NCBI GenBank assembly: GCA_001768325.1
Contig: MENQ01000021.1
Coordinates: 1 to 64,000, forward strand
Direction of reading: 5' to 3'
Length of the DNA stretch: 64,000 bases
Source: Bacteroidetes bacterium GWC2_46_850
GTDB taxonomy: Bacteria > Bacteroidota > Bacteroidia > Bacteroidales > Dysgonomonadaceae
A program made the position numbers and the translations under genes. Positions 49,834 to 52,614 of this stretch are shown piece after piece. The notes beneath the pieces are model-generated. The model saw only the letters and a list, made by a program, of their open reading frames with translations, did not search any database and was not told the DNA's origin. Each line of letters starts with the position of its first letter. The stretch's first letter is position 1.

Positions 49834-50720
49834 TATCCTAAATTGTTAATTCCGTTTTCCTGATTTTCTGATCCCTGATCTTTTCCATGTTTCTCCGCCC
49901 TGTATTCACCCAGTATCTTCAGACCGCTGATGAGGGGCATGATGGCGTCTATCGACTGCCGGTATCGATTGTAATTACTGAAAGTCAGGTCGATATAGAA
50001 CTGGTATTCCCACTCCCTACCAATGATCGGCAACGACTGAATGCGGGTGAGGTTGACACCATAAAACGACAAGACAGAGAGTACCTGCGACAAGCTACCT
50101 TCAGCATGGGGCAATACAAATACCAGCGATGACTTGTTGATGTGATTGTCTTTCTGAATCTCACGCAGCATCTCTTCGCCCGCGAGAATAAAAAAGCGGG
50201 TGAAATTACGTTTGTTTGTTTCTACACCCGCTGCGAGGATTTCCAGTCCGTACATTTCGGCCGCGAGGCTGCTGCAAATGGCAGCTGTACCGGCCAGCGC
50301 TTTCTCTTGAATATCCCTGGCTGCGAGCGCGGTGTCGTCGTGCTCCACCACCTTAATGCCAGGAAGGGTATCGAGAAAATCTTCACATTGCATCAACGCC
50401 ATGGGGTGCGACATCACCTCTCTGATATCAGCTAGCGTCTGCCCGGGTAGAGCAGCCAGTGAATGGGTAATCCGCAACTTATGCTCCCCAGCAATCTGCA
50501 GGTTGTGAATCTTTAACAGGTCGTGATTCTTCAGCAGACTGCCGGCAATGGTATTTTCGATGGCCATGACACCCACCAAGTGCGGATCTTTTTCAGCCTC
50601 TGTGAAAATGTCGCGAAAGGAACTGCATGGTACAATCTCCACATCTTCGCCACTGAAATATTCGCGTGCCGCGATTTCGTGATAAGCGCCCAAACCTCCT
50701 TGTATAGCTACTCTTTTCAT
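49833..50720 (-). CDS. pheA: Prephenate dehydratase
   Basis: Converts prephenate to phenylpyruvate. A 295-residue monofunctional enzyme. The PDT domain covers about 1-180 (AIQGGLGAYHEIAAREYF, MAIENTIAGSLLKNHDLL, a TRF-type NFTRFFILA end), then an ACT domain at about 195-275 (KSSLVFVLPHAEGSLSQVLS, LTRIQSLPI, YQFYIDLTF) for feedback by Phe. No chorismate mutase domain. First structural gene of the operon; preceded by a leader with Phe/Tyr-rich ORF, antiterminator and terminator. Confidence 0.95.
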   Translation of the reverse strand: MKRVAIQGGLGAYHEIAAREYFSGEDVEIVPCSSFRDIFTEAEKDPHLVGVMAIENTIAGSLLKNHDLLKIHNLQIAGEHKLRITHSLAALPGQTLADIREVMSHPMALMQCEDFLDTLPGIKVVEHDDTALAARDIQEKALAGTAAICSSLAAEMYGLEILAAGVETNKRNFTRFFILAGEEMLREIQKDNHINKSSLVFVLPHAEGSLSQVLSVLSFYGVNLTRIQSLPIIGREWEYQFYIDLTFSNYNRYRQSIDAIMPLISGLKILGEYRAEKHGKDQGSENQENGINNLG

Positions 50721-50735
50721 TTATTCTTTTTTTTC

Positions 50736-50766
50736 AAAAAAAAATCCCATCGTGTTACCGACGGGA
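50736..50766 (-). terminator. Attenuator terminator in the pheA leader
   Basis: In the minus-strand RNA: UCCCGUCG, loop GUAACA, CGAUGGGA (8 bp with one G-U), then nine U (50744-50736). It ends 15 nt before the pheA ATG, so it would stop transcription before the operon unless the antiterminator forms. Confidence 0.85.
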
Positions 50767-50818
50767 CTTTATTTGTATGATATGTTGTTATCTTCTTTTT
50801 TGCATATAAAATCCCGCC
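50760..50818 (-). promoter_or_regulatory. Antiterminator pairing in the pheA leader
   Basis: GGCGGGATTTTAT (50818-50806) can pair with ATAAAGTCCCGTC (50772-50760) over 13 contiguous base pairs with two G-U wobbles. The 3' arm covers seven of the eight bases of the terminator 5' arm, so both structures exclude each other. The 5' arm begins 1-2 nt after the stop codon of the leader ORF, where a ribosome at the stop would cover it. Confidence 0.75.
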
Positions 50819-50819
50819 T

Positions 50820-50876
50820 TTACCTACTAAAGTAAAAGTAAAAACCGAAAGAAAATGCAAAAACTGAATTGTTCAC
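50820..50876 (-). CDS. Phe/Tyr-rich leader peptide of the aromatic operon
   Basis: An 18-codon ORF from GTG 50876 to TAA 50820-50822: MNNSVFAFSFGFYFYFSR, with six Phe and two Tyr, all within eleven consecutive codons (residues 5-15). The predicted transcription start (about 50898) is about 22 nt upstream. Stalling at Phe or Tyr codons would leave the antiterminator arm free, while reading through to the stop would mask it and allow the terminator. This is the arrangement of pheL in E. coli, with an unrelated sequence. The GTG start is the weakest point; no in-frame ATG exists. Confidence 0.75.
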   Translation of the reverse strand: MNNSVFAFSFGFYFYFSR

Positions 50877-50904
50877 TTTTATATTCTTTATTGAAATATG
50901 GATG

Positions 50905-50934
50905 CAAATGTACAACTTTTTTTATATATACAAA
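50905..50934 (-). promoter_or_regulatory. Promoter of the aromatic amino acid operon (-33 and -7)
   Basis: On the minus strand: TTTG (50934-50931), 18-nt spacer, TACATTTG (50912-50905). It is the only promoter in the window where I see both the -33 TTTG and the -7 TAnnTTTG at canonical spacing. Confidence 0.75.
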
Positions 50935-51078: not shown

Positions 51079-52614
51079 ATGTTCAAAAATCATCCAAAAG
51101 GTTTGCTGGCGGCATCGCTGGCAAACATGGGAGAGCGGTTTGGTTTTTACACCATGATGGCCATACTCTCACTGTTTATCATGACTAAGTTCGGCCTGGA
51201 CGAAACCAAAACCGGTATCATCTACTCCATCTTTTATGCCTCCATCTACCTGCTGGCGCTCGTGGGCGGGCTACTGGCCGATAAAACACGTAATTACAAA
51301 GGTGTTATTCTGGCAGGTTTGATGCTGATGACACTGGGTTACGTAATCATCTCCATTCCCACACCCACACCGGTACCTGCCGGCCAGTTCGGCCTGTTGC
51401 TGGCGTTCACCTGCCTGGGTCTTCTCGTCATTGCTTTCGGTAACGGGTTGTTTAAAGGTAACCTGCAGGCGTTGGTAGGACAGATGTACGACAATCCGAA
51501 ATACAGCAAAATGCGCGACTCCGGTTTCCAGTTATTCTATATGTTTATCAATGTGGGCGCTATCTTTGCACCGTTCCTGGCAGTGGGTGTCAGAAACTGG
51601 TGGGTGGAGAAAAACGGCTTTCTGTATAATGCCGACCTGCCAGCACTGGCCCATCAACTCTTGGGAAACACGATTACGACTGAAGGTACGGAACGGTTTC
51701 AACGTCTGGCAGCTGAAGTTGGGTATGCAGGCACTGACCTCACCGCTTTTGCAAATGAATATCTGAATGTTTTTACTACCGGATTTCACTATGCCTTTGC
51801 GGTGGCTATTTTTGCCATGCTGATCTCTCTGGTCATATATTCATTTAACAAGAACAGATTTCCCGACCCCGCAAACAAAAAAGCGGCTGCCACAGGCAAT
51901 GAAGCAGTAGAAGAGATGGATATCAAAGAGGTGAAGCAGCGACTCTATGCCCTTTTTGCCGTGTTCGCCGTGGTCATCTTCTTCTGGTTCTCTTTTCACC
52001 AGAACGGGCTCACCCTCACCTACTTTGCCAGGGATTATACCGACCTGAGCCAGGTTAAGGTCAACCTGGGATTTGCTACCCTGCAGGGAGCAGAAATATT
52101 CCAGTCGATCAACCCTTTCTTCGTAGTATTCCTTACACCCATTATTGTGGGCTTTTTTGGTTGGTTGCGTGCCAAAGGTAAAGAGCCCTCCACGCCCAGA
52201 AAGATAGCCATCGGCATGGGAATTGCCGCATTGGCATATGCTGTGATGGCACTCGGGTCGATGGGACTCCCGCTAAAGGGGGAGGTGGATGCCATGGGCG
52301 GACTGCCCGATGCCGCCCGTGTAACACCCTGGCTGCTGATCGGCACCTACTTTATTCTCACTGTGGCTGAACTTTTTATCAGCCCTCTTGGCATCTCTTT
52401 CGTGTCGAAGGTGGCCCCTCCCAAATATCAGGGAATTATGCAGGGAGCCTGGCTGGGTGCTACGGCGGCTGGCAACAGCCTGCTTTTCATCGGCGCCATC
52501 TTTTACACTTCCTTCTCCATGTCGGCGACCTGGATGGTTTTCGTGGTTGCCTGTCTCATCTCCATGTTTACCATGCTGGCGATGATCAAATGGCTTGAGA
52601 GGGTCGCAAAATAA
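51079..52614 (+). CDS. POT/PTR2 family proton-dependent peptide transporter
   Basis: A 511-residue membrane protein with about 12-14 segments. POT signatures: NMGERFGFYTMMAIL at about 17-31 (the ExxERFxYY-type motif), YSIFYASIYLLALVGGLLAD, the second PTR motif region FQLFYMFINVGAIFAPFLA, and a C-terminal LTVAELFISPLGISFVSKVAPPKYQG. Uptake of di- and tripeptides with protons fits a peptide-fermenting Bacteroidales; substrate is inferred. Divergent from the pheA operon and closed by a strong terminator. Confidence 0.93.
   Translation: MFKNHPKGLLAASLANMGERFGFYTMMAILSLFIMTKFGLDETKTGIIYSIFYASIYLLALVGGLLADKTRNYKGVILAGLMLMTLGYVIISIPTPTPVPAGQFGLLLAFTCLGLLVIAFGNGLFKGNLQALVGQMYDNPKYSKMRDSGFQLFYMFINVGAIFAPFLAVGVRNWWVEKNGFLYNADLPALAHQLLGNTITTEGTERFQRLAAEVGYAGTDLTAFANEYLNVFTTGFHYAFAVAIFAMLISLVIYSFNKNRFPDPANKKAAATGNEAVEEMDIKEVKQRLYALFAVFAVVIFFWFSFHQNGLTLTYFARDYTDLSQVKVNLGFATLQGAEIFQSINPFFVVFLTPIIVGFFGWLRAKGKEPSTPRKIAIGMGIAALAYAVMALGSMGLPLKGEVDAMGGLPDAARVTPWLLIGTYFILTVAELFISPLGISFVSKVAPPKYQGIMQGAWLGATAAGNSLLFIGAIFYTSFSMSATWMVFVVACLISMFTMLAMIKWLERVAK

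Follow-up and report, generated by a model that had tools for sequence, protein, structure and literature searches.

A ribosome-mediated transcription attenuator very probably lies upstream of pheA in Bacteroidetes bacterium GWC2_46_850, where it would regulate the pheA-aminotransferase-aroF/CM-tyrA operon by sensing the supply of charged tRNA-Phe and tRNA-Tyr. The DNA that we analyzed, referred to here as the window, is a 64,000-nucleotide stretch (positions 1 to 64,000 of contig MENQ01000021.1). On its minus strand we find a short open reading frame (ORF) rich in Phe and Tyr codons, an antiterminator, and an intrinsic terminator, in that order and directly before pheA. These parts are conserved in relatives, their arms covary, and the element occupies the same genomic position there. 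A first-pass annotation of this DNA had proposed a Phe/Tyr attenuator. The conserved Phe/Tyr codons and start codon, arms that covary and exclude one another, and a position ahead of a Phe/Tyr operon are best accounted for by that reading.

The pheA Leader and Its Operon

The features of the locus, in order of transcription on the minus strand and followed by the upstream neighbor, are as follows.

50934-50905, minus strand: Bacteroidetes-type promoter, TTTG (50934-50931), 18 nt, then TACATTTG (50912-50905)
50876-50820, minus strand: predicted leader peptide ORF, GTG start, 18 codons, VNNSVFAFSFGFYFYFSR
50861-50853, minus strand: arm 1, outer 1:2 helix, UUUGCAUUU in codons Phe-Ala-Phe, partner 50807-50799
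50838-50832, minus strand: arm 1, inner 1:2 helix, CUUUUAC in Phe-Tyr codons, partner 50823-50817
50823-50817, minus strand: inner 1:2 helix, 3′ side, GUAAAGG, which overlaps the stop codon of the leader
50818-50806, minus strand: arm 2, the 5′ arm of the antiterminator, GGCGGGAUUUUAU
50807-50799, minus strand: outer 1:2 helix, 3′ side, AUAUGCAAA, located just past arm 2 in the 3′ direction
50772-50760, minus strand: arm 3, the 3′ arm of the antiterminator, overlapping the 5′ arm of the terminator
50769-50736, minus strand: intrinsic terminator 3:4, 50769-50759 with 50752-50742 (11 pairs), then U9 ending at 50736
50720-49833, minus strand: pheA, prephenate dehydratase, first gene of the operon (NCBIfam PRK11898.1, E 2.2e-57)
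49833-48661, minus strand: aminotransferase gene, member of the operon
48639-47554, minus strand: aroF/CM, DAHP synthase fused to chorismate mutase (match below curated cut-offs)
47549-46776, minus strand: tyrA, prephenate dehydrogenase (match below curated cut-offs)
51079-52614, plus strand: divergent upstream neighbor, an oligopeptide transporter gene

Most of the parts claimed in the first-pass annotation are borne out by these coordinates. The promoter, with its TTTG and -7 TACATTTG, is where it had been placed; the 18-codon ORF does hold 6 Phe and 2 Tyr codons within 11 codons (codons 6-16); the antiterminator comprises 13 pairs including G-U (50818-50806 with 50772-50760); and the pheA ATG, at 50720, lies 15 nt past the end of U9. 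The terminator had been located correctly, with its U9, but its stem has 11 pairs rather than the 8 bp claimed. The statement that there is no separate 1:2 hairpin was wrong, as the hairpin is present, consists of an outer and an inner helix, and is retained in relatives. The antiterminator and the terminator are mutually exclusive, with arm 3 common to both, and the leader RNA folds better than all 200 of its shuffles (z = -4.62).

The pheA product scores 194.4 bits against PRK11898.1, for which the curated cut-off is 219. Its nearest named relatives among the matches listed are Proteiniphilum assemblies, with 91-94% identity (L002, L003, and L005). Within L001-L110, 64 loci had enough downstream sequence, and the order pheA-aminotransferase-aroF/CM is kept in 62 of them, with tyrA next after aroF/CM in 42. 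The enzymes of the operon serve the synthesis of both Phe and Tyr, the two amino acids of the leader.

Transcription is predicted to start near 50898. Among testable loci, a -7 box of the form TAnnTTTG lies ahead of the leader in 92 of the 97 from L001-L110 (shuffles 0.099), 51 of the 66 from L148-L227 (0.118), and 36 of the 63 others in the class (0.109). The full TTTG/TAnnTTTG promoter is found in 48/97, 32/66, and 15/63 of the same groups, respectively, against 0.004-0.006 in shuffles.

Recurrence of the Leader Upstream of pheA

We searched upstream DNA of pheA homologues for an ORF in which at least 5 of 8 consecutive codons encode Phe or Tyr, followed by an intrinsic terminator. The sample comprised upstream DNA from the 80 best of at least 264 relatives found in contigs of named genomes; 30 loci of the order (pheA was found in at least 179 of its 393 genomes) with 80 further stretches of the order; 29 loci found with a covariance model of the leader, R1; and 40 stretches from other orders of the class and 20 from other classes (at least 337 of 392 phylum genomes matched). 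Two loci at contig ends (L029 and L187) were unusable, and L262-L265 were left out, as pheA is not first in their operon. At least seven pairs of loci are one genome sampled twice (L027/L082, L049/L088, L054/L089, L058/L095, L070/L103, L079/L120, and L097/L119).

A Phe/Tyr leader with a terminator precedes pheA in 105 of 109 and 67 of 79 usable loci in the two largest groups, which are mostly Bacteroidales. It is likewise present in 35 of 36 loci from other orders of the class, a group biased downward because genomes whose model-found loci had already been taken were excluded from it, and in 5 of 20 outside the class. All 29 model-found loci also carry it, although these were chosen by R1 and do not provide an independent rate. 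Overall, 241 of 273 usable upstream regions have the pattern, whereas dinucleotide shuffles show it in 8 of 2730 cases and reverse strands in 2 of 273; since the source lists were ranked by similarity, these rates hold for the nearer pheA relatives. The first-pass annotation had staked its reading on conservation of the Phe/Tyr codons and of the pairing arms in relatives, and both are present in these loci, the arms with covariation (see below). A stricter threshold of 6 of 8 codons gave 104/109, 66/79, 26/29, 27/40, and 5/20, and it misses shorter leaders.

Among the 32 upstream regions that lack the pattern, 15 are outside the class and 17 inside. Nine of the latter have a leader with no terminator found (L071, L093, L107, L151, L153, L156, L168, L172, and L234), and eight have neither (L068, L154, L155, L161, L163, L166, L178, and L204). 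Two of these eight, L166 and L178, come from genomes of 1.2 and 1.0 Mb in genus code g94, while L110, which shares this genus code and has a genome of 2.7 Mb, retains both leader and terminator. Loss of the leader in L166 and L178 is possibly tied to genome reduction.

Applied to 392 whole genomes of the phylum, R1 had matches in 106 at E ≤ 0.01. All 29 loci examined outside the source genome sit directly upstream of a pheA homologue on the same strand; two of them (L119 and L120) were already in the model alignment, and 24 are from other orders of the class. In the genome of the window, the pheA leader scores 128.1 bits and nothing else exceeds 33.4 bits. Some weaker matches, away from pheA or in a genome without pheA (G740), are probably ordinary terminators and were not counted.

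In four genomes of family code f128 (L262-L265), the leader precedes aroF, which opens a longer aromatic operon: aroB- and aroA-like genes (named from their translations) come next, and pheA lies 3.5-3.8 kb downstream. Because these leaders precede aroF, the element goes with the aromatic operon and not with pheA as such.

Leader Peptides and Their Start Codons

The short Phe/Tyr-rich ORF predicted before pheA is conserved in relatives, with codons that match the product amino acids of the operon. The Phe/Tyr run and a start codon are retained even in relatives with quite different leader sequences. Among 264 elements, the start codon is ATG in 242, GTG in 13, and TTG in 9, as called by a script that chooses ATG over an alternative start when both are open. 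The GTG start claimed earlier thus stands for the window locus, but GTG occurs mainly in Proteiniphilum and its near kin. A Shine-Dalgarno-like core is present in 3 of 253 leaders (shuffles 0.032), and the leader ORF of the window (50876-50820) is without one. Upstream of the start in these 253 leaders, A is common at -3 (0.61) and at -12 (0.63).

In 11 loci (L036, L048, L061, L079, L087, L094, L096, L097, L102, L108, and L110), the ORF lacks a stop upstream of arm 2 and continues through it, as in L048 (...FSRVKAGVCM); the position of the stop varies and the helices stay. A ribosome that has passed the Phe/Tyr run would be expected to cover arm 2 in these loci too. We also considered Trp as a third sensed amino acid, prompted by FWFYFYF in many Proteiniphilum leaders, and dropped it. 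Of 244 distinct leader peptides, 70 contain a Trp, and its share of all their residues is 1.4%, which we judge close to ordinary.

Base Pairing and Covariation

We examined the pairings in an alignment of 98 of the 99 distinct leader sequences; L091 was left out, as the second of its two tandem elements had been picked. The terminator 3:4 is paired in 98.2% of cells, against at most 55.8% for slid versions of the arms, and 120 cells have changed on both sides. The antiterminator 2:3 is paired in 87.8% of cells (slid versions at most 49.2%), with 95 such double changes, and the outer 1:2 helix in 87.1% (at most 64.4%), with 47. For each of these three helices, none of 500 shuffles reached as many double-change cells. 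The inner 1:2 helix is paired in 89.0% of cells (slid versions at most 74.2%), and its 13 double-change cells exceed all 500 shuffles, yet a slid control also has 13, so covariation in this helix is weak. When pairs with a double change are counted instead, the antiterminator and the inner 1:2 helix do not stand above their shuffles (117 and 151 of 500 as high, respectively). Across all loci, the 2:3 pairing is matched by at most 5 of 100 shuffles in 235 of 264 elements.

Since these shuffles ignore relatedness, we added a test on a pheA tree. Parsimony gives 6-13 changes per side, with coordinated changes in the same direction and those in the opposite direction averaging 0.0, and between roughly a quarter and three fifths of the independent pairs show no change in the partner. 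In this test, which mostly lacks power, one of seven pairs has a median p of 0.03 and the other six have 0.125-0.5. The shortest protein supplied to the tree had 6 residues, a row that the program apparently dropped. As one of seven pairs reached p = 0.03, the case for the pairings rests on the pair counts and on recurrence.

The outer 1:2 helix also runs through the coding sequence of the peptide. At the first base of the codon that follows Phe in this helix, 43 of 98 sequences have G (Ala) facing C, 28 have A (Thr) facing U, and 12 have G facing U. From this pattern, the Ala/Thr residue of the peptide appears to follow the hairpin and the Phe/Tyr codons to follow the sensor. One residue of the leader peptide may thus be set by RNA pairing (50853-50861 and 50799-50807 in the window).

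Proposed Mechanism and Folding Model

RNA polymerase would start near 50898, and a ribosome would initiate on the leader ORF with no Shine-Dalgarno sequence to guide it. Under shortage of Phe or Tyr, this ribosome would wait in codons 6-16 and keep arm 1 unpaired, leaving arm 2 free to pair with arm 3 once the latter is made, and polymerase would read through into pheA. With ample supplies of both, the ribosome would reach the stop and cover arm 2, the terminator 3:4 would form, and transcription would end at U9 near 50736. We infer this course of events, including where the transcript begins and ends, how ribosome and polymerase are coupled, and how the switch responds to Phe and Tyr, from the arrangement of the parts.

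To this scheme we compared a computed folding model with a ribosome placed on the RNA. With arm 3 made, placing the A site at codons 12-16 gives 2:3 a probability of 0.98, which drops to 0.76 at codon 17, 0.11 at codon 18, and 0.00 at the stop. This fall from 0.98 to 0.00 agrees with the geometry set out in the first-pass annotation, in which waiting frees arm 2 and a ribosome at the stop covers it. Before arm 4 exists, the probability of 2:3 is 0.92 without a ribosome and 0.91-0.98 with one at codons 2-11. Because the naked RNA forms 2:3, the model shows that the stop position blocks this pairing, not that the 1:2 hairpin prevents it. When the whole terminator is present, 3:4 is favored at every position of the ribosome (probability 0.71-0.95). 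Antitermination must therefore be kinetic.

Alternative Readings

The leader is largely base-paired, as might be expected if the RNA were a metabolite- or protein-sensing riboswitch with a terminator, the ORF not being the sensor and the Phe/Tyr peptide a by-product; the constraint of the 1:2 hairpin could itself preserve U-rich codons. We regard this as highly improbable. The Phe/Tyr run and the start codon persist across leaders whose sequences are otherwise quite different, no conserved aptamer-like core is seen in the 98-sequence alignment beyond the mutually exclusive arms, and the window has no Rfam match at the gathering score (0 families, with no T-box or known riboswitch among them). 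At E ≤ 10, the Rfam search returned 23 matches, none of them credible; the best was MIR5298 (26.8 bits, cut-off 70), and Thr_leader reached 23.4 bits against a cut-off of 55.

A smaller probability still attaches to the idea that translation of the leader merely boosts or re-initiates translation of pheA, a role that has been proposed for short leader genes near structural genes, and that the terminator is constitutive. Leader genes in Bacteroidetes do peak 11-14 bp before structural genes, according to the accessible part of one report (PMC4833913). Here, however, 99 nt separate the leader stop from pheA, the terminator lies in that interval, and the antiterminator is conserved and covarying. 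Least probable of all is an ordinary terminator of upstream transcription next to a chance U-rich ORF. U-rich sequence readily yields Phe codons, and such DNA is common here, but the same pattern arises in only 8 of 2730 shuffles, the 2:3 arms covary, and their pairing beats shuffles in nearly all elements (235/264). Moreover, since the upstream neighbor (51079-52614, plus strand) is divergent, the terminator is not that of the upstream gene. Attenuation by a ribosome on the Phe/Tyr leader is the reading that we carry forward.

Tandem Leaders

The window holds the single form, with one attenuator. Two Phe/Tyr leaders, each followed by a terminator, are found in 14 loci of relatives (L081, L090, L098, L099, L101, L158, L185, L191, L197, L215, L226, L228, L241, and L246). 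In 10 of them, both elements also have an antiterminator pairing that no more than 18 of 200 shuffles equal (L081, L090, L098, L099, L101, L158, L226, L228, L241, and L246); in L185, L191, L197, and L215 the first element is without such a pairing. The 13 tandem loci that have family codes fall in seven codes, which suggests, as judged by these codes, a repeated origin of the tandem forms.

Other Leaders in the Same Genome

Upstream of hisG (116722) in this genome (L300, G000:C7), a His leader, MKANMFHHHHFHTCNQAS, is followed by a terminator, ACCCGTCTGA-TCAGGCGGGT, and is likely a his attenuator. We located hisG by a family search; a genome-wide scan for His runs gave 80 matches, one of them just ahead of hisG, and is unspecific by itself. 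The segment G000:C11:86871-87005 (L302), before a trpB-like gene named from its translation, holds a Trp leader, MNLLNNGYWWRYLQPKKS, as well as a TACATTTG promoter box and a terminator. With his and trp leaders and their terminators in the same genome, leader-peptide attenuation looks like a general habit here. Within the window, a search for other leaders with amino acid runs yielded only short R-, T-, and V-rich frames, none convincing, at a threshold that also missed the pheA leader.

Implications

The chances are about even that leader-peptide attenuation on Shine-Dalgarno-free leader ORFs is ancestral and class-wide in the aromatic synthesis of Bacteroidia, and that several lineages independently added a second complete Phe/Tyr attenuator in series, answering the same signal with a sharper off state. 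If such attenuation is ancestral, ribosomes would follow RNA polymerase closely in Bacteroidota. Because the switch needs a ribosome that keeps up with polymerase and its leaders are free of Shine-Dalgarno sequences, transcription-translation coupling in this phylum could be tested with one reporter. The element offers a sequence-defined regulator of the Phe/Tyr pathway in most Bacteroidia loci examined, in a phylum important in the gut and elsewhere. Both the covariance model R1 and the tandem forms can be put to use directly in annotation and in experiments.

Comparison with Known Systems

Leader-peptide attenuation in the phylum is already in print: the accessible part of a transcriptome study of Flavobacterium psychrophilum describes strong clues for it upstream of amino acid biosynthesis operons (PMC9723704). 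The same source describes a structured 5′ element of pheA that has no Rfam match and is conserved in Flavobacteriaceae (PMC9723704). That element and ours share the gene, the phylum, and a structured 5′ region without an Rfam match; compared by description, the accessible account names conservation within the family and does not give arms, codons, or covariation (PMC9723704). A map of Bacteroides thetaiotaomicron, again as far as its accessible part goes, mentions sORFs reminiscent of leader peptides (PMC7366714). An earlier survey by Naville and Gautheret (2010), in the part accessible, states that leader peptides were then known only in Proteobacteria and Actinobacteria and adds Firmicutes (PMC2965389). 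Our literature search, which covered few subscription papers, turned up no account of a pheA element across the class, of its arms, or of its occurrence in tandem.

Bacteroid-trp precedes trp genes, holds Trp codons, and acts by attenuation. It differs from the pheA leader in both its operon and its codons. The RF01692 model of this motif has 0 matches at E ≤ 0.001 in the whole genome studied here, despite the Trp leader before its trpB-like gene, and a control, Bacteroides ihuae, gives a match. Weinberg 2010 lists Bacteroid-trp (RF01692) as a cis-regulatory motif of Bacteroidetes in the part of that paper accessible (PMC2864571). The tandem forms have a parallel in Salmonella mgtCBR, where, by the accessible account, one leader RNA contains two leader ORFs with attenuators that respond to ATP and proline (PMC3641672). 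The mgtCBR tandem therefore answers different signals, whereas both leaders of the tandem pheA forms are Phe/Tyr-rich.

Acholeplasma belongs to a phylum other than Bacteroidetes. For its uORFC-13-1 motif, the accessible part of one study proposes a Phe-coding uORF (at least one Phe) before aroF, with a terminator (PMC8632094). Compared by description, this motif resembles the pheA leader in combining a Phe uORF and a terminator before a gene of the aromatic pathway.

The closest counterpart in design is E. coli pheL-pheA, in which a Phe-rich leader peptide, 1:2, 2:3, and 3:4 arms, and a terminator before pheA bring about attenuation. The Rfam model of that leader (Phe_leader, RF01859) scores 15.1 bits at our locus against a gathering score of 55, which amounts to no detectable homology. 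The pheA leader resembles pheL in its Phe-rich peptide, its scheme of arms, and its terminator before pheA. It differs in using Phe and Tyr codons together, in preceding a pheA-aminotransferase-aroF/CM-tyrA operon, in its Bacteroidetes promoter, and in its lack of a Shine-Dalgarno-like core. We conclude, with good comparative support, that the pheA leader belongs by its predicted mechanism to a known kind of switch and is class-wide in its occurrence.
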